A DNA stretch of 48,940 bases from Saprospiraceae bacterium (GTDB lineage: Bacteria; Bacteroidota; Bacteroidia; Chitinophagales; Saprospiraceae). Below are positions 2,644 to 10,985 of this stretch, in pieces; within the stretch, counting starts at the first letter, position 1, and each line of letters starts with the position of its first letter. The notes beneath the pieces were generated by a model. It did not search any database, was not told where the DNA came from, and saw only the letters and a list, made by a program, of their open reading frames with translations. The stretch is taken from assembly GCA_023268675.1 (NCBI GenBank), contig JALQTV010000002.1:1-48940 (forward strand). The letters are read 5' to 3'. Made by a program: the position numbers and the translations under genes.

Positions 2644-2675
2644 CTTGTAATACTGGTAAAAGAGCGCTTTATTTG
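2644..2675 (+). promoter_or_regulatory. Candidate Bacteroidota promoter of the arginine operon
   Basis: CTTG at the left and TTTATTTG at the right are separated by 20 bases. The Bacteroidota primary-sigma consensus is TTTG, about 19-21 bases, then TAnnTTTG; each box has one mismatch. Transcription would start near 2682, giving a leader of about 230 bases before the GNAT gene. The leader contains the hairpin, leader peptide and terminator annotated separately. This rests on pattern matching only. Confidence 0.45.
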
Positions 2676-2742
2676 TCCCATGATTTCTAAACAGACGACA
2701 TATCACTTTTCAAACTTCTCTTATACTACCGTACACAGTAGT

Positions 2743-2775
2743 ATGGGTATGCGTCGTCGCCCTTTGGGGGCGTAA
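2743..2775 (+). CDS. Arg-rich leader peptide MGMRRRPLGA
   Basis: This is a ten-codon frame with ATG at 2743 or 2749 and a TAA stop. It contains three consecutive Arg codons (CGT CGT CGC) and sits about 135 bases before the first arginine-biosynthesis gene. Three successive codons for the end product of the downstream pathway are the hallmark of amino-acid leader peptides such as those of his and trp operons. The first ATG is inside a hairpin and the second is just outside it, so start choice could itself be regulated. The reading frame could be chance, but its position upstream of this operon makes that unlikely. Confidence 0.6.
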   Translation: MGMRRRPLGA

Positions 2776-2784
2776 TATTTTTTT
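2758..2784 (+). terminator. Attenuator terminator inside the arginine leader
   Basis: The stem CGCCC/GGGCG has a 5-base loop and is followed by TAA and then TATTTTTTT. The stem is short but all GC, and the U-tract is seven long. It lies between the promoter-like element and the first structural gene, so as a constitutive stop it would silence the operon. A conditional role is therefore likely. Confidence 0.6.
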
Positions 2785-2909: not shown

Positions 2910-3491
2910 ATGGATGTAAAAATTCTAACTGCCCAAGACATTCACCAGCACTATGCTGAGGAAATCTGTCACCTTATGGAAGTTTCTGCTCATGAGCGGA
3001 AAACAGGGATTGCCAAGCGTTCGCCGGACTACATCCGTGCCAAAATGGCTACCGGCAATGCAATCATTGCGCTCGACGGGGAGCACTTAGTGGGTTTTTG
3101 TTATATTGAGACCTGGTCACACGGCAAATATGTAGCCAACTCCGGACTCATCGTAGCCCCTGCCTACCGGAAAATAGGGATGGCTACCAGTATCAAAAAA
3201 GCCGTTTTTAACCTGGCCAGAAACAAATACCCGGAAGCAAAAGTATTCGGTATCACAACCAGCCTTGCTGTGATGAAAATCAATACCGAACTGGGCTACA
3301 AGCCGGTAACTTTCTCCGAACTGACGCAGGATCAGGCTTTTTGGGACGGTTGCAAAAGTTGTCCCAACTTTGAAATACTGGAAAGAAACGAGCGAAAACT
3401 GTGCCTTTGTACGGGGATGCTCGCGCCTTCAAAAGTGGAAATGGAAAAGGATTTATCTCATTTAATTTTGGCTACGAATGAAAAACAATAA
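2910..3491 (+). CDS. GNAT N-acyltransferase, probable N-acyl-glutamate synthase of the arginine operon
   Basis: This 193-residue GNAT protein probably performs the first committed step of arginine synthesis, acylating glutamate with acetyl-CoA or succinyl-CoA. The acyl-CoA loop is visible at about residues 79-92 (SGLIVAPAYRKIGMA, an R-x-x-G-x-A version of the GNAT motif A). The C-terminus adds Cys148-x-x-Cys151 and Cys165-x-Cys167, a likely structural zinc site that is unusual in GNATs. ATG at 2910 is preferred over an in-frame TTG 36 bases earlier because the homologous fold begins at MDVKIL. It is the first gene of the operon and overlaps argG by 14 bases. No separate argA or argJ is present in the window, which supports the assignment. 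Confidence 0.7.
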   Translation: MDVKILTAQDIHQHYAEEICHLMEVSAHERKTGIAKRSPDYIRAKMATGNAIIALDGEHLVGFCYIETWSHGKYVANSGLIVAPAYRKIGMATSIKKAVFNLARNKYPEAKVFGITTSLAVMKINTELGYKPVTFSELTQDQAFWDGCKSCPNFEILERNERKLCLCTGMLAPSKVEMEKDLSHLILATNEKQ

Positions 3492-4677
3492 AGTTGTACT
3501 GGCCTACAGCGGTGGGCTGGACACCTCTTACTGCATTCCCTTTCTCAGCAGGGAAAAGGGACTCGAAGTGCATGCCGTAACAATCAATACCGGTGGTTTC
3601 GGTAAGGAAGAATTGAAAGAAATGGAACAAAAAGCCATGAAACTGGGTGCTGCCAGCTTCACAGCAGTAGATGCTCTTCAGGCTTATTACGATAAATGTA
3701 TCCGCTACCTGATCTACGGAAATGTCCTGCGAAATCAAACCTATCCACTTTCTGTAAGTGCAGAAAGGATCATTCAGGCAGTTGAAATCGCTCAATATGC
3801 CCGTTCGGTAGGAGCACAATACATTGCCCACGGAAGTACCGGCGCGGGCAATGACCAGATCAGATTCGACCTGACCTGGGAAATCATGGCTCCGGAACTG
3901 GAAATCATTACCCCCATCCGCGATCAGCAACTGAGTAGACAACAGGAAGTGTCCTACCTGCAAAATCTGGGATTTGATTGGAATTGGGAAAAAGCACAAT
4001 ACTCAATCAACAAAGGCTTGTGGGGAACCAGCGTTGGTGGATCGGAAACGCTTACTTCACACCAGGGATTACCGGAGAGTGCCTACCCCTCACAATTAGA
4101 GACAAAAGACAGCGAAAGCCACACTCTTCACTTCAAAGAAGGCGAACTGGTAGGCGTGGATGACAAAGTTTTTGGCGAAGCCGTAGCCGCTATCCAATAC
4201 CTCCAACAACTCGCAGCCCCTTTTGCCATCGGCAGAGACATACACGTGGGGGATACCATCATAGGGATCAAAGGTCGCGTAGGCTTCGAAGCAGCTGCCC
4301 CAATGGTCATCATCAAGGCACATCACCTGCTCGAAAAACACATCCTGTCCAAATGGCAAATGTACTGGAAACAACAGTTATCCGAGTGGTATGGCATGAT
4401 GCTGCACGAAGGACAATACCTGGATCCGGTAATGCGCAACATAGAAGCATTCCTACAGGATACCCAGTCCAATATTACAGGCAAGGTTTTTGTCCAGTTT
4501 CACCCTTATCGCTTCGAATTGGCAGGCATAGAATCAGCCTATGACCTGATGCAATCGGAAATGGGAACTTACGGAGAGATGAACAAAGGCTGGACCGGCG
4601 AAGATGCCAAAGGATTTACCAAAATTATGGCTCAGGCAACCAAGATCTATTATTCACTCAACAAACTGGATTTGTAA
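3478..4677 (+). CDS. argG: Argininosuccinate synthase
   Basis: This cytoplasmic enzyme of 399 residues condenses citrulline and aspartate with ATP to argininosuccinate. The N-type ATP-pyrophosphatase loop is at residues 8-17 (LAYSGGLDTS). YIAHGSTGAGNDQIRF, around residues 117-132, is the citrulline/aspartate and second ATP-binding segment typical of ArgG. Length is normal. Its start lies inside the 3' end of the GNAT gene and its TAA stop overlaps the argC ATG (TAATG), so all three should be translationally coupled. The position ahead of argC is characteristic of the Bacteroidota gene order. Confidence 0.96.
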   Translation: MKNNKVVLAYSGGLDTSYCIPFLSREKGLEVHAVTINTGGFGKEELKEMEQKAMKLGAASFTAVDALQAYYDKCIRYLIYGNVLRNQTYPLSVSAERIIQAVEIAQYARSVGAQYIAHGSTGAGNDQIRFDLTWEIMAPELEIITPIRDQQLSRQQEVSYLQNLGFDWNWEKAQYSINKGLWGTSVGGSETLTSHQGLPESAYPSQLETKDSESHTLHFKEGELVGVDDKVFGEAVAAIQYLQQLAAPFAIGRDIHVGDTIIGIKGRVGFEAAAPMVIIKAHHLLEKHILSKWQMYWKQQLSEWYGMMLHEGQYLDPVMRNIEAFLQDTQSNITGKVFVQFHPYRFELAGIESAYDLMQSEMGTYGEMNKGWTGEDAKGFTKIMAQATKIYYSLNKLDL

Positions 4678-5645
4678 TGAAAAAAGCAGGCATCATAGGC
4701 GGGGGAGGCTATACCGCCGGAGAACTGCTCAGAATACTGGTGCACCATCCGAAAGTAGAAATTGACTACGTCTATAGCCGTACCCAGGCAGACAAACCCC
4801 TGACCTCCGTCCATGATGACCTTATTGGAGATACAACAGGCTGCTTCAGTGGATCCTTTAACATGGATGTAGATGTACTCTTCCTCTGTTTGCCTCATGG
4901 CGAATCTGCCGGTTTTCTGGCAGAAAACCCGGTTCCGGAAGATTTGCTGGTCATTGATTTGTCCAACGATTTTCGGTACAAACATTTGGAAGCAGGTTTT
5001 GTCTACGGGCTGCCGGAACTCAATCGCGAAAGTATTGCCTCCGGCAAAAAAATAGCCAACCCGGGATGTTTTGCTACCGCCATACAACTGGCTCTACTGC
5101 CCATGGCGGCCCACAAACAACTTGTGCAAGACATACATGTCAATGCCATCACAGGTTCTACAGGCGCCGGCCAAAAACCTCAGGCAACCACGCATTTTAG
5201 CTGGCGCAACAACAACGTTTCCGTGTACAAGGCTTTCCGGCACCAACACCTCCACGAAATCCGCGCTTCGCTGGAACAATTGCAGCAAGGACAAGTACCC
5301 ACCATCCATTTTATACCTGTACGCGGAAATTTTGCCAGAGGCATCATGGCTTCCGTTTACTTCCAATTGCCCGGAATATCCGAAGCCGATATTAAAAGTT
5401 GGTACCTGGATTATTATCAAAACCACCCTTTTGTAGTGGTCAGCGATCAAAATCCACATCTCAAGCAGATTGTCAATACCAACAAATGCCTCCTGTACCT
5501 GGAAAAACATGAAGATACTGTACTCATCATCAGTATGATAGACAATTTAATCAAGGGTGCCTCAGGTCAGGCCATTCAAAATATGAACCTGGCCATGGGC
5601 TTTGAAGAAAACCTTGGTCTGCAACTCAAACCCATTGCTTACTAA
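4677..5645 (+). CDS. argC: N-acyl-gamma-glutamyl-phosphate reductase
   Basis: ArgC reduces N-acyl-glutamyl-5-phosphate to the semialdehyde with NADPH. The Rossmann loop GIIGGGGYTAGELLRIL is at residues 5-21, and the catalytic Cys131 sits in ANPGCFATA. The substrate-binding GSTGAGQ segment lies near residue 160. At 322 residues it belongs to the short, non-fused ArgC type. The one-base overlap with argG suggests coupling. The acyl group is probably succinyl, judged from the transcarbamylase in this operon. Confidence 0.95.
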   Translation: MKKAGIIGGGGYTAGELLRILVHHPKVEIDYVYSRTQADKPLTSVHDDLIGDTTGCFSGSFNMDVDVLFLCLPHGESAGFLAENPVPEDLLVIDLSNDFRYKHLEAGFVYGLPELNRESIASGKKIANPGCFATAIQLALLPMAAHKQLVQDIHVNAITGSTGAGQKPQATTHFSWRNNNVSVYKAFRHQHLHEIRASLEQLQQGQVPTIHFIPVRGNFARGIMASVYFQLPGISEADIKSWYLDYYQNHPFVVVSDQNPHLKQIVNTNKCLLYLEKHEDTVLIISMIDNLIKGASGQAIQNMNLAMGFEENLGLQLKPIAY

Positions 5646-5663
5646 TCTTGTTAAAGCCTGCCC

Positions 5664-6794
5664 ATGAAATTATTTGATGTTTACCCCATGCTGAATATGA
5701 CCGTTGAAAGAGCACGGGGAGAGCGGGTATTCGATGATACCGGCAAATCCTACCTCGATCTCTATGGCGGGCACGCCGTCATTTCTATCGGCCATTCACA
5801 TCCTCATTACGTTGAGCGCCTGGAAAACCAATTGCACAAAATCGGATTTTACTCCAATGCTGTCCACAATCAGTTGCAGGCTGCACTGGCCAATCACCTC
5901 GGTAAATTGGCAGCCGTGGATCAATACCATTTGTTTTTGAGCAACTCCGGAGCCGAAGCCAACGAAAATGCGCTCAAAATGGCATCCTATCATACCGGAA
6001 AAGCAACATTTATTGCCTTCCGCAAAAGCTTCCATGGCCGTACCAGCGCCGCATTGGGTTTGACCGATAACCCTCGCCTGCAAACGCCCTTTTCAGGAAG
6101 CATCCCGGTAGAATGGCACGATCTCAACCACATTGCAAGTGTAGAAGAAAGTCTGGCAAAAGGCGATAAAGCCGCTGTCATTATAGAAGGCATACAAGGC
6201 GTTGGTGGCATCCATGTACCCACAGATGACTTTCTCCGGGAATTATCTGCCTGCTGCAAAAAATACAATACACCACTCATTTTGGATGAAATCCAGTCAG
6301 GTGCTGGCAGAACGGGACACTTTTTTGCCTTCCAGTCGAGTGGCATAGAACCCGATATCATTACCTCCGCAAAAGGGCTGGGCAACGGTTTCCCCATAGG
6401 AGCCACCCTCATACACCCCAAATTCGAAGCGAAACACGGACTATTGGGTACTACTTTCGGAGGCAACCACCTCGCTTGTGCCGCCGCGCTCGCAGTGCTG
6501 GAAGTCATTGAACAGGAAGACCTCATGACAAAAGCAAAAGCTCATGGGGATTACATTATGGAAAAACTCCGAACCTTACCCCACGTAGAAGAAGTCAGAG
6601 GCAAGGGACTCATGGTAGGCATACAACTAGATCAAGCAGTAGCACCTTTGCGAAAACAACTTTTTGAACAACACCACATGCTCACAGGCAACTCCTCGGA
6701 TCCCAATGTCATCCGACTGCTGCCCCCCCTCAACGTGCAAAAAGAAAGCCTTGACCAGTTTGCCGATGTTTTGAATCACCTCCTTCAATCCTAA
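5664..6794 (+). CDS. argD: N-acyl-ornithine aminotransferase
   Basis: This is a PLP-dependent class-III aminotransferase of 376 residues that converts N-acyl-glutamate semialdehyde and glutamate to N-acyl-ornithine. The PLP-binding Asp208 lies in LILDEIQSG, and the Schiff-base Lys237 in SAKGLGNGFPIGA. SNSGAEANENALK (residues 93-105) forms the phosphate-binding loop. It starts 18 bases after argC. Family members also act on acyl-lysine precursors, but the operon context points to arginine. Confidence 0.94.
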   Translation: MKLFDVYPMLNMTVERARGERVFDDTGKSYLDLYGGHAVISIGHSHPHYVERLENQLHKIGFYSNAVHNQLQAALANHLGKLAAVDQYHLFLSNSGAEANENALKMASYHTGKATFIAFRKSFHGRTSAALGLTDNPRLQTPFSGSIPVEWHDLNHIASVEESLAKGDKAAVIIEGIQGVGGIHVPTDDFLRELSACCKKYNTPLILDEIQSGAGRTGHFFAFQSSGIEPDIITSAKGLGNGFPIGATLIHPKFEAKHGLLGTTFGGNHLACAAALAVLEVIEQEDLMTKAKAHGDYIMEKLRTLPHVEEVRGKGLMVGIQLDQAVAPLRKQLFEQHHMLTGNSSDPNVIRLLPPLNVQKESLDQFADVLNHLLQS

Positions 6795-6807
6795 ATAGTA
6801 AAATCCG

Positions 6808-7755
6808 ATGAAGCATTTTCTCTCCATAAACGATGCCCCCAACCTGCAAAGCCTGATAGACCTCGCCATGGTTTATAAGAAAAACCCCAATGTCGATCGG
6901 GAAAAAGGACTCAATAAAACCCTGGGACTGCTGTTTTTCAACTCTAGTCTGCGCACCCGTCTAAGTACCGAAATTGCAGCTCATAATCTGGGCATGCAAG
7001 TCATAGGATTCAGCAACCAGCAAGCCTGGAACCTGGAATTCGGTGAAGGAGCTGTGATGGACCAACAAAACGCAGAACACATCAAGGAAGCAGCAGGGGT
7101 ACTAAGTACCTATGTTGATATCCTGGGGGTCCGTTCTTTTCCAGAACTGGCAGACAGAGCGCTGGATTACAGCGAACCTGTCATGAACGGTTTCCTCAAA
7201 CACCTAAGCATTCCACTTGTCAACCTCGAATCTGCAACCATGCACCCCTTGCAATCTCTGGCTGATCTGATGACGATCCGGGAGTTGCAAAAAACTGCAA
7301 AACCAAAAGTGGTACTAACCTGGGCACCTCATCCGAGAGCACTGCCACAGTCCGTCCCTAATTCTTTTGCTTCTTGCATGCTGGCTGCCGGAATAGACCT
7401 TACCATCACTCATCCTGAAGGTCTCGAGTTGTCACCAGATTTCACTCAGGGAGCTACCATTACTCACAACCAACAAGAAGCCTTCGAAGGAGCTGACTTT
7501 ATCTACGCTAAAAACTGGTCCTCTTTCAAAGAATACGGCAAAGGTACCAGCCTTCACAGCGACTGGATGGTAGACGGCAAAAAAATGAAGCTAAGCAACG
7601 AAGGACGTTTTATGCACTGCCTCCCGGTAAGACGAAACGTAGTTGTAGCCGACGAGGTCCTCGACAGCCCACAATCGGTGGTACTGCAACAAGCCGAAAA
7701 CCGTATCTTTACTGCACAGGCTGTTCTGTCCAAGCTACTTGATCATGGCAAATAA
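6808..7755 (+). CDS. argF': N-acyl-ornithine transcarbamylase, predicted succinyl-ornithine specific
   Basis: This enzyme transfers carbamoyl from carbamoyl phosphate to N-acyl-ornithine. The carbamoyl-phosphate motif is FFNSSLRTR (residues 43-51). The HPLQ motif is at 146-149 and HCLP at 270-273 within the HCLPVRRN signature of the AOTCase/SOTCase family. By alignment from memory, Ala89 in DQQNAEH takes the place of Pro90 in the Bacteroides fragilis succinyl-ornithine enzyme and of Glu92 in the Xanthomonas acetyl-ornithine enzyme. Published substitution work on the Xanthomonas protein reports that Ala there gives succinyl specificity, hence the call. Length (315) is normal. The 3' end overlaps argB by 11 bases. 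Confidence 0.92.
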   Translation: MKHFLSINDAPNLQSLIDLAMVYKKNPNVDREKGLNKTLGLLFFNSSLRTRLSTEIAAHNLGMQVIGFSNQQAWNLEFGEGAVMDQQNAEHIKEAAGVLSTYVDILGVRSFPELADRALDYSEPVMNGFLKHLSIPLVNLESATMHPLQSLADLMTIRELQKTAKPKVVLTWAPHPRALPQSVPNSFASCMLAAGIDLTITHPEGLELSPDFTQGATITHNQQEAFEGADFIYAKNWSSFKEYGKGTSLHSDWMVDGKKMKLSNEGRFMHCLPVRRNVVVADEVLDSPQSVVLQQAENRIFTAQAVLSKLLDHGK

Positions 7756-8533
7756 ATTACCCCTGCATATCCTGAAAATCGGTGGTGCTGTCGTGGATGA
7801 CGCACCCTTGCTGCAAGAAGCCCTACAAGCATTCGCTGCCATCCCTCATGCCAAAATACTGGTACATGGAGGAGGACAAGCAGCCAATGATATGGCAAAA
7901 AAACTGGGCATCACCCCTGTCATGCTCAATGGACGAAGAGTGACCGATCAGGCTACTCTGGAAGTAGTCACTATGGTATATGCAGGATGGCTCAATAAAA
8001 GCATCGTAGCACAACTGCAGGCACTGGATTGCGACAGTCTGGGACTCAGTGGTGCAGACCTCAATGTCATCCGGGCAAGCCTGCGCCCGCCAAAACCCGT
8101 AGATTATGGCTTTGCCGGTGACATACAAGCCGTCAACACCGAACGCATGCAGTGGTTGCTGGAAAACAAAGTGAGTCCCGTATGTTGTGCCATTACCCAC
8201 AACAAAGAAGGCCAGTTGCTCAACACCAACGCAGATACCATCACTGCCAGCCTGGCAACTGCCATGAGCAAGCATTACGACGTATCCATCTATTACTGTT
8301 TTACCAAACCGGGAGTCATGGTAGACCCCGATAAGCCTGAAACCATTATCCCTGAAATTAATACAGAAAGTTACCGGGAGCTAAAAGCCGCTGGTATCAT
8401 TAAAGATGGCATGCTGCCAAAACTTGAAAATGCCTTCGATGCTCTTCAAAAAGGAGTTGACCAGGTCATTATCGGATCAGTAGCAGCTATTCACCCTGAA
8501 AGCGGCATTGCCAAAACAGTCATCAGGCGCTAA
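7745..8533 (+). CDS. argB: N-acyl-glutamate kinase
   Basis: ArgB phosphorylates the gamma-carboxylate of N-acyl-glutamate. The amino-acid kinase fold shows the ATP loop LKIGGAVVDD near the N-terminus and VHGGGQAANDMAKKLG around residues 40-55. A distal IIPEI / IKDGMLPKLENAF segment contributes to nucleotide binding. At 262 residues it is the short form without the N-terminal helix that gives arginine-sensitive hexamers. Feedback control by arginine may therefore be weak, making the leader attenuator more important (inference). ATG at 7745 is preferred over a TTG six bases earlier, and both lie inside the 3' end of argF'. Confidence 0.93.
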   Translation: MANKLPLHILKIGGAVVDDAPLLQEALQAFAAIPHAKILVHGGGQAANDMAKKLGITPVMLNGRRVTDQATLEVVTMVYAGWLNKSIVAQLQALDCDSLGLSGADLNVIRASLRPPKPVDYGFAGDIQAVNTERMQWLLENKVSPVCCAITHNKEGQLLNTNADTITASLATAMSKHYDVSIYYCFTKPGVMVDPDKPETIIPEINTESYRELKAAGIIKDGMLPKLENAFDALQKGVDQVIIGSVAAIHPESGIAKTVIRR

Positions 8534-8553
8534 ACCTATTAAAAAAGACGAAA

Positions 8554-9636
8554 ATGGATGACAAACAGATCGAACAACTCCACCAATCAGCCGTCAAACT
8601 GCTGCAGGAACTGATCCGTATTCCATCCTTTTCAAGGGAAGAACAGGATACAGCCGACCGGATTGCCGATTTCCTCAATCAAAAACAAATACAGGTTTTT
8701 CGCATCCAAAACAACATCTGGGCCCAATACAAACACTTCAACCCCAAACTGCCCACTGTTTTGCTCAACTCCCATCACGATACAGTCAAGCCCAACAGTG
8801 GTTATACTCTCGATCCTTTCGAAGCGCTGATCCGCGATGAAAAATTATACGGCCTGGGTAGCAATGATGCCGGAGCTTCACTGGTGGCACTCATTCATAC
8901 CTTCCTTCACTTTGCACGCGACAAAAAACTCCCCTTCAACCTCATCATGCTTGCCAGTGCAGAAGAAGAAATATCCGGTCCTAACGGCGTAAGCGCTGCA
9001 ATCCCCAAAATGCCCCCTGTGACTTGTGGCATTGTGGGAGAACCTACTTCTCTGCGTATGGCTATCGCCGAAAAGGGACTTATGGTAATTGATGCCAAAA
9101 CTAAAGGCGTAGCAGGTCATGCCGCTCGCGATGAAGGTGTCAATGCCATTTATCTTGCCTTGCAAGCCATTCAGAGAATTCGTCAATTTGAGTTCCCTGA
9201 AATATCCGACATGCTCGGTCGCGTCAAGATGAACGTTACCCAGATTCAGGCAGGTACCCAACACAATGTGGTACCGGATGAATGTAAATTTGTCATAGAC
9301 ATCAGAAGCACAGATTGCTATACCAATGCCGAAATACTGGAAATTTTAAAAAAAGAATTAGGCATAGAGCTGATCCCCCGCTCTCTGAGACTCAACCCCT
9401 CCGGTATAGCCAATGACCATCCCCTTGTAAAAGCAGGGCAGGCCATCGGCCTTAAAGGAGTGGGTAGCCCAACACTATCCGATCAGGCGCTCATGTCTTT
9501 TCCAACCATCAAACTGGGATGCGGAGATTCTGCACGATCGCATAGTGCAGATGAATTTGTCTATCTGGCTCAAATACACGAAGGTATCCGAACCTATATC
9601 AACCTTATCAGGCATTTAAAAAATTACCTTACATGA
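8554..9636 (+). CDS. argE: M20-family deacylase, probable N-acyl-citrulline deacylase
   Basis: This 360-residue di-zinc M20 peptidase-fold enzyme would remove the acyl group. Because transcarbamylation occurs on N-acyl-ornithine in this operon, its substrate should be N-acyl-citrulline rather than N-acyl-ornithine. Ligand positions visible are His74 and Asp76 (SHHDTV), Asp105 (GSNDAG), Glu137-Glu139 (AEEEISG), Glu163 (GEPT) and His330 (HSADEF). The dimerisation or lid domain occupies about residues 175-285. It starts 20 bases after argB and overlaps argH by ATGA. Sequence alone cannot separate this from DapE or from acetyl versus succinyl preference. Confidence 0.88.
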   Translation: MDDKQIEQLHQSAVKLLQELIRIPSFSREEQDTADRIADFLNQKQIQVFRIQNNIWAQYKHFNPKLPTVLLNSHHDTVKPNSGYTLDPFEALIRDEKLYGLGSNDAGASLVALIHTFLHFARDKKLPFNLIMLASAEEEISGPNGVSAAIPKMPPVTCGIVGEPTSLRMAIAEKGLMVIDAKTKGVAGHAARDEGVNAIYLALQAIQRIRQFEFPEISDMLGRVKMNVTQIQAGTQHNVVPDECKFVIDIRSTDCYTNAEILEILKKELGIELIPRSLRLNPSGIANDHPLVKAGQAIGLKGVGSPTLSDQALMSFPTIKLGCGDSARSHSADEFVYLAQIHEGIRTYINLIRHLKNYLT

Positions 9637-10985
9637 AATTGTGGAATAAGTCGGCTCAGCTGCACGAAAAAGTAGAAAAATTTACCATCGGCAGAGACCA
9701 GGAGTTTGATCTTCAACTGGCAACCTTCGATATAGAAGCTTCTATGGCACATACCTACATGCTCCATAGCATAGGCATCATCGGAGCAGAAGAATGGCAG
9801 CAACTGAAGCCACAGTTCAGACTATTGTACGACAAAGCACTGAAAGGAGAGTTGATAATAGCTCCCGGAGTCGAAGACATACACTCTCAGGTGGAAATGG
9901 AACTGACTCAGGCACTCGGAGAACTAGGCAAAAAAATTCATACCGGCCGCTCCCGAAACGACCAGGTACTCGTTGACCTGAAATTGTTTTACCGCGCAGA
10001 AATCAGAGAAATACTCGAAAGAGTAGCCTCCCTTTTCCAATTGCTACAACAACACAGCGAAACCTATAAAAATGTTCTGATCCCAGGTTATACCCACACA
10101 CAACTGGCCATGGTTTCTTCTTTTGGCCTCTGGTTCGGTGCCTATGCCGAAGCACTGACAGACGACGTGGGACTTTTCCGGCACGCCTTCGAAATTGTCA
10201 ACCAAAACCCACTGGGATCCGCCGCAGGCTATGGCAGCTCATTTCCCGTAAATCGTCAACTGACAACAGAATTGCTGGGCTTTGCCCGACCTGATTACAA
10301 TGTGGTCAAAGCACAAATGGGACGAGGAAAAGCAGAACTTATCCTGGCCTATGGACTGGCAGGACTGGCAGCAACCCTGAACAAAATGGCTTCAGATGCC
10401 ATACTCTACTGCAACCAGCACTACGATCTGATGGGCTTCTCAAGAGCTTTTACCACAGGATCCAGCATCATGCCACACAAAAAAAATCCCGATGTGATGG
10501 AAATCCTCCGTGGAAGAACCGCTCAACTGATGCAGCTGCCCTCTCAAATCAGTACGGCCATGGCAAACCTTACTTCAGGGTACCACCGCGATTTCCAACT
10601 GCTAAAAGAATACATCTTTCCTGCACTGGAACAAACCAAAACGGTACTGGAAATAGCTACGCTTTCTCTGACCGACGTAATCATCAAAGCTCCTAACCTC
10701 AGGGAAGAAAAGTTCAAATATTTGTTCAGCACCGAAGTGGTCAACCAACTCGTGCAACAAGGCATGTCGTTCCGAGAGGCCTACTTTACCATCAGCGAAC
10801 AGATAGAATCCGGCACTTACCAACCTTCCTATGACATTCAACATACCCACATTGGAAGCGTCGGCAACCTGTGTACCGCAGAAATCAAAGCCCGCATGGA
10901 AGCACAAATGCGTACTTTCCCATTTGAAGCCATAGACAAAGCACTAGAAGCCTTGTGGGAACTGCAACCAATATCTGCTCAATAG
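9633..10985 (+). CDS. argH: Argininosuccinate lyase
   Basis: ArgH cleaves argininosuccinate to arginine and fumarate as a cytoplasmic homotetramer. The fumarase-superfamily signature GSSIMPHKKNPDVME is at residues 276-290. TGRSRNDQ at 104-111 and the catalytic His155 in GYTHTQ are also intact. Length is 450 residues. The start ATG shares bases with the TGA of the preceding deacylase gene (ATGA). It is the last gene of the operon and converges on arsM 40 bases downstream, where only a weak 5-bp hairpin (ATCCG/CGGAT) without a U-tract is seen. Confidence 0.95.
   Translation: MKLWNKSAQLHEKVEKFTIGRDQEFDLQLATFDIEASMAHTYMLHSIGIIGAEEWQQLKPQFRLLYDKALKGELIIAPGVEDIHSQVEMELTQALGELGKKIHTGRSRNDQVLVDLKLFYRAEIREILERVASLFQLLQQHSETYKNVLIPGYTHTQLAMVSSFGLWFGAYAEALTDDVGLFRHAFEIVNQNPLGSAAGYGSSFPVNRQLTTELLGFARPDYNVVKAQMGRGKAELILAYGLAGLAATLNKMASDAILYCNQHYDLMGFSRAFTTGSSIMPHKKNPDVMEILRGRTAQLMQLPSQISTAMANLTSGYHRDFQLLKEYIFPALEQTKTVLEIATLSLTDVIIKAPNLREEKFKYLFSTEVVNQLVQQGMSFREAYFTISEQIESGTYQPSYDIQHTHIGSVGNLCTAEIKARMEAQMRTFPFEAIDKALEALWELQPISAQ

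Follow-up and report, generated by a model that had tools for sequence, protein, structure and literature searches.

Arginine operons are textbook targets of the repressor ArgR, the usual controller of arginine biosynthesis, and the operon described here raises the question of what controls it in a lineage from which that repressor is absent. The window, a stretch of 48,940 nucleotides from a Saprospiraceae bacterium (contig JALQTV010000002.1), carries a full arginine operon, as had been read from the sequence in a first-pass annotation and is confirmed here by NCBIfam matches:

2910..3491, + strand, GNAT acetyltransferase, the first structural gene (weak GNAT-family match)
3478..10985, + strand, argG, argC, argD, acetylornithine carbamoyltransferase, argB, an argE/dapE-type deacylase and argH (NCBIfam)

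ArgR, which is found in Bacteroides-like genomes, was detected in none of 61 genomes comprising this one (its assembly 88.5% complete) and its relatives, while the same search was positive in control genomes, one of them a Bacteroides. This absence makes plausible the earlier suggestion that a leader is the main control of the operon; the accompanying first-pass remark, that ArgB may lack feedback control by arginine, is drawn from the length of that protein. Across a phylum sample of 247 genomes, ArgR occurs in 93, the GNAT gene in 103 and both in 4, two of which (G450 and G472) represent weak or repeated short matches; in G645 and G653 argR adjoins GNAT on its upstream side, and neither genome shows an Arg leader there. 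The complementarity of ArgR and leader tracks phylogeny and is best taken as a small number of events, not as many independent ones. The evidence set out below leads us to regard attenuation by a ribosome that gauges the supply of charged tRNA-Arg as the likely control.

An arginine-rich reading frame close to the promoter

The region upstream of GNAT contains the following elements:

2645..2675, + strand, promoter, with a -33-like TTG at 2645-2647 and a -7-like TTTATTTG at 2668-2675 (sequence; mostly kept in the congener L002)
2680..2775, + strand, leader ORF of 31 codons (sequence; identical length and frame in L002)
2698..2703, + strand, ACATAT element near leader +19, a DNA- or RNA-level signal (sequence)
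2723..2744, + strand, hairpin within the leader ORF, ATACTAC/GTAGTAT (-10.0 kcal/mol; palindrome)
2752..2760, + strand, Arg codons CGT CGT CGC (sequence; Arg cluster placed likewise in most relatives)
2758..2772, + strand, hairpin H1, CGCCCT TTG GGGGCG, overlapping the Arg codons (6 pairs, 5 of them GC, loop of 3)
2778..2784, + strand, seven T, 5 nt past H1 with TAATA between (a weak or non-canonical terminator at best)

The promoter-like pair of the first-pass annotation is present and is better described as Bacteroidota-type, since TTTATTTG agrees in 7/8 positions with TAnnTTTG, the -7 consensus given for Bacteroidota in PMC9723704. A promoter of this type places the ATG at 2680, which starts 4 nt past the box, within a few nucleotides of the expected 5' end. 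The CGT CGT CGC run lies where it had been noted, in a frame that is open without a stop back to this ATG; the 10-codon frame originally proposed thus has its Arg codons in frame but is just the in-frame 3' third of a 31-codon ORF, which encodes the peptide MISKQTTYHFSNFSYTTVHSSMGMRRRPLGA and ends with the stop codon TAA at 2773-2775. In a random 31-codon peptide with the Arg frequency of the operon, a run of three Arg is expected with P ~0.0014. The hairpin that was thought to cover a start codon is real and stands clear of the likely start; a shifted form of it, ACTACTA/TAGTAGT, occurs in L002, making two species in all. The only congener, genome G001, has a leader counterpart of equal length (MKCKNATYYFSNFSCTTIHSSLGMRRRPLGA, followed by a stop).

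Distribution of the leader and comparison with chance

The GNAT upstream regions that were compared came from three sources: relatives, 80 named GTDB loci and a range of families across the phylum. A rule blind to arginine (a TAnnTTTG box, the next ATG and an ORF of 7-60 codons) finds an ORF in 85/155 unique regions, as against 7.1% of dinucleotide shuffles, and an ORF with at least three Arg precedes GNAT-argG in 78/155, as against 1.1% of shuffles. Arg accounts for 19.2% of residues in frame; shifting the frame lowers its share to 5.8% and 5.2%, and reading the antisense strand gives 5.3%. Substitutions at codon positions 1, 2 and 3 number 51, 53 and 92 among 18 close leader pairs, not all of them independent, a pattern that supports a leader frame evolving like coding DNA and hence favours its translation. 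The -7 box of relatives lies mostly 4-9 nt ahead of the leader ATG.

Arg-rich leaders precede the arg operon in Saprospiraceae, Flavobacteriaceae, Balneolaceae, Cesiribacter and some Bacteroidales MAGs. About half of the 155 upstream regions give no ORF by the strict rule, leader calls beyond that rule being liberal, and three loci (L011, L015 and L017) are without a leader. In one lineage, consisting of G025 and a relative (L003, L022), the start is GTG or ATG and just 2-4 Arg remain; judged from these sequences, the leader of this lineage seems to be decaying. Two tandem Arg-rich ORFs stand upstream of GNAT in the Flavobacteriaceae-type loci L050, L056, L061, L065 and L068 and also in L070, L074, L080, L088 and L091, the first ending ~230-250 nt and the second ~80-100 nt before GNAT; the candidate start of the second is ATG or TTG, and a AGGTGAGTCC-type hairpin follows it.

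Outside the Arg cluster the peptide varies across lineages, and in lineages other than our own family all six Arg codons are used. Arg identity is therefore what is retained, and since the other residues vary, codon-level sensing of Arg-tRNA is the best reading of the leader. CGT and CGC make up 195/216 Arg codons in own-family leaders, unlike the genes of the window, in which AGA is commonest (53/170); part of this preference follows from H1. The variability of the peptide also bears on a different mechanism, in which free arginine or another metabolite would arrest the nascent peptide in the manner of the fungal AAP or TnaC, with a terminal Pro-stop as the arrest point. Many leaders do end in RRRP-stop, yet this ending is explicable by the need of H1 for CGCCC, several leaders run beyond the proline (RRRPLGA-stop in the window, RRRPSGRV-stop and RRPVGRK-stop elsewhere), and nothing but the Arg cluster is conserved across lineages. 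We consider peptide arrest very improbable.

Hairpins at and beyond the stop codon

The GC hairpin overlapping the Arg codons, H1, was confirmed and folds at -9.3 kcal/mol in the window. In relatives its left arm is formed by the last Arg codons and its loop usually contains the stop codon. Averaged over 35 own-family leaders, the folding energy of 30-nt windows has a minimum of -9.4 kcal/mol at the stop codon and another of -7.1 kcal/mol ~35 nt later, against a baseline of about -1.5 kcal/mol past +55; in 48 leaders of other lineages the stop-codon minimum is present and the second is weaker.

The first-pass annotation saw no alternative structure. That holds within the window's genus, where no such switch was found in either of the two species (L001 and L002), but relatives possess mutually exclusive hairpins just downstream, in which 3:4 and 4:5 have one strand in common. 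Both hairpins with their shared strand reach p<=0.05 against shuffles at 66% of 35 loci, probably an underestimate because CATAT occurs twice, which put the scoring of at least 4 loci out of register. By inspection, the arms of 3:4 and 4:5 change sequence between species while pairing is retained. The second hairpin of Flavobacteriaceae differs, again by inspection: its stem changes and its loop, AGGTGAGTCC, is almost constant.

Several other candidates were discarded. When own-family leaders were aligned with MAFFT alone, RNAalifold returned a 2-pair stem only, the arms shifting register, and per-sequence tests were used instead; the alignment of the flavobacterial second hairpin was shifted in register by two loop lengths and yielded no pair counts. 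Several folds contain a 2:3 pairing (GGG..UAUA with AUAU..CCC), which L024, L026, L027, L035 and L161 do not preserve. Scanning the 61 genomes with the hairpin as an exact pattern gave 13 matches, 4 of them arg loci, and at zero mismatches none in the window's genome, G000, or in G001, where the loop is one base too short. The window region and 11 leader loci had no Rfam leader match, and so none to an Arg T-box riboswitch. Sequestration of the GNAT start codon as a general mechanism was likewise rejected, a duplex test giving 5.3% of 131 loci at p<=0.05, which equals chance. Both congeners have a conserved TCTATTTTCC (2797-2815) that could base-pair with GAAAATGGA around the start of GNAT (2900-2915); on its own this pairing is not significant in the window and its congener (p 0.06).

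Terminators in arg and his leaders

The seven T at 2778-2784 had been combined with H1 into a terminator that a stalled ribosome would mask. Both parts are present in the window, and T-rich stretches also follow H1 in L004, L006, L029 and L110. Against this design, a gap of 5 nt separates the stem from the tract; in the single congener, L002, the run of T is broken (TAACATTTTCTT), and most relatives lack it though their Arg leader stays. Comparison with relatives thus bears out the Arg codons before the arg operon but not the terminator as a conserved element, the hairpin being retained mostly without a U-tract, and we regard termination at H1 and the seven T as doubtful.

One scoring scheme for terminators, which asks for a hairpin at least as stable as -10 kcal/mol and then a U-tract, was applied both to the arg leaders and to the his leaders found in these relatives. 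Intrinsic terminators were found in 21/23 his leaders compared with 8/38 own-family and 5/40 other arg leaders. The leaders before hisG operons are His-rich, not Arg-rich, and therefore leader attenuation exists in this lineage with codons that match the operon. Loci L189-L216, hisG loci of relatives, have HHHH leaders and strong intrinsic terminators before hisG; several of these leaders lie directly downstream of an apparent tRNA gene.

The scarcity of canonical terminators in most arg leaders would be accounted for if the leader determined whether Rho or an RNase attacks the untranslated RNA ahead of GNAT, in the manner of Salmonella orf34/speF or E. coli tnaC, with leader translation or a stall deciding the outcome and an intrinsic terminator unneeded. 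In favour of this scheme, the Arg cluster adjoins the stop codon, C exceeds G past the leader in 123/135 loci, and the window is pyrimidine-rich at 2776-2860. Orf34 provides a precedent that Arg codons can act in this way (PMC6386406). On the other side, the C/G ratio is >=2 in only 21/135 loci, and Rho does not require the conserved stable hairpins seen downstream. G-poor 5' regions may moreover be usual in Bacteroidota. Control through Rho or decay thus appears unlikely, if worth keeping in view.

The ACATAT element

CATAT occurs at leader +14..+19 in 34/47 own-family leaders, in differing reading frames, and near only 1/65 other promoter-adjacent ATGs, that of L136, which is probably another arg leader. 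Own-family leaders carry a second ACATAT 10-11 nt past H1 (within 9-11 nt in 32/47), while the window has the copy inside the leader ORF only. An element kept at two fixed places regardless of reading frame could be the site of a DNA- or RNA-binding regulator, as could the palindrome at 2723-2744, the leader peptide then being secondary. The spacing of the two copies changes with the length of the leader, however, the element is not evident among Flavobacteriaceae leaders, and a binding protein would leave the Arg codons unexplained. We conjecture that ACATAT at 10-11 nt after H1 fits a hairpin-stabilised RNA polymerase pause, which would suit the second copy better, and a binding regulator seems to us a poor prospect.

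A proposed model for attenuation by charged tRNA-Arg

Codon-level sensing of charged tRNA-Arg, the reading that we favour, would operate as follows. Transcription would start just ahead of the leader ATG and give a nearly leaderless mRNA, on which a ribosome translating the short peptide would reach the Arg cluster inside or right before H1. With ample Arg-tRNA the ribosome would pass and be released at or right after H1; with scarce Arg-tRNA it would stall on the Arg codons and keep H1 open. The stall would alter downstream folding, in relatives by directing strand 4 to strand 3 or to strand 5, and the altered fold would let RNA polymerase proceed into the arg operon. We infer the stalling of the ribosome, the direction of the response and transcription termination as the output. 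Any of these hairpins may represent the OFF state, as strand parity alone does not yield ON under starvation. Unlike the arrangement in hisL or trpL, the Arg codons are so near H1 that it would be covered by a ribosome whether this were stalled on them or standing at the stop codon.

A broader and more tentative proposal, which we rate as less likely than not, is that outside ArgR-bearing lineages Bacteroidota control arginine synthesis by a nearly leaderless Arg-codon leader, mostly without a canonical terminator, in which a ribosome stalled beside the stop-codon hairpin would act on a paused RNA polymerase (at ACATAT) or on Rho, some Flavobacteriaceae having two such leaders in tandem. If true, a codon-sensing leader in ArgR's place across a large part of the phylum would be a clear regulator replacement, and the arg leader would be a test case for attenuation with nearly leaderless transcripts, little use of Shine-Dalgarno sequences and mostly no strong terminator.

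Relation to known leaders

Like leaders of the hisL/trpL type and the His leaders of the relatives, the arg leader is a short ORF rich in codons for the end product, placed before a biosynthetic operon and followed by hairpins, some of them mutually exclusive in relatives. It differs from hisL/trpL in that its Arg codons are at the end of the ORF, in or just before the stop-codon hairpin, in that its start is nearly leaderless and in that a strong intrinsic terminator is usually missing. Such a terminator is a defining feature of the hisL/trpL type; the arg system, though it mostly lacks one, probably works like that type.

Two leaders from other bacteria also use Arg codons. Orf34, the speF leader of Salmonella, has consecutive Arg codons, and ribosome pausing at low arginine refolds its RNA; unlike the arg leader it controls ornithine decarboxylase, has two Arg codons in its conserved domain and acts through Rho and RNase G (PMC6386406). 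In Staphylococcus aureus rbfL, leader Arg codons likewise sense a shortage of Arg-tRNA, but these are the rare codons AGA/AGG and the outcome is occlusion of a ribosome binding site, which lowers translation of a downstream regulator (PMC13009471). Structured 5' regions of Flavobacterium psychrophilum have been described as hinting at attenuation by leader peptides upstream of operons for amino acids, with conserved elements at pheA and hisG (PMC9723704); the main text of that article does not name arg. None of the open-access papers searched describes arg leaders in Bacteroidota, although Lopatovskaya et al. 2010 or the supplementary material of PMC9723704 may.

The first gene of the operon

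The carbamoyltransferase of the operon is of the N-acetylornithine type and the deacylase is argE-like. Only 19/61 genomes encode argG, the remainder presumably being arginine auxotrophs, and GNAT is encoded in 18/19 of the relatives with argG. Its role in N-acetylglutamate synthesis would be a guess. Named matches of GNAT are mainly from Saprospiraceae and other Bacteroidota. In 17 homologues the cysteines C147, C150, C164 and C166 (CxxC...CxC) of the protein encoded at 2910-3491 are invariant, which suggests a metal or redox site.
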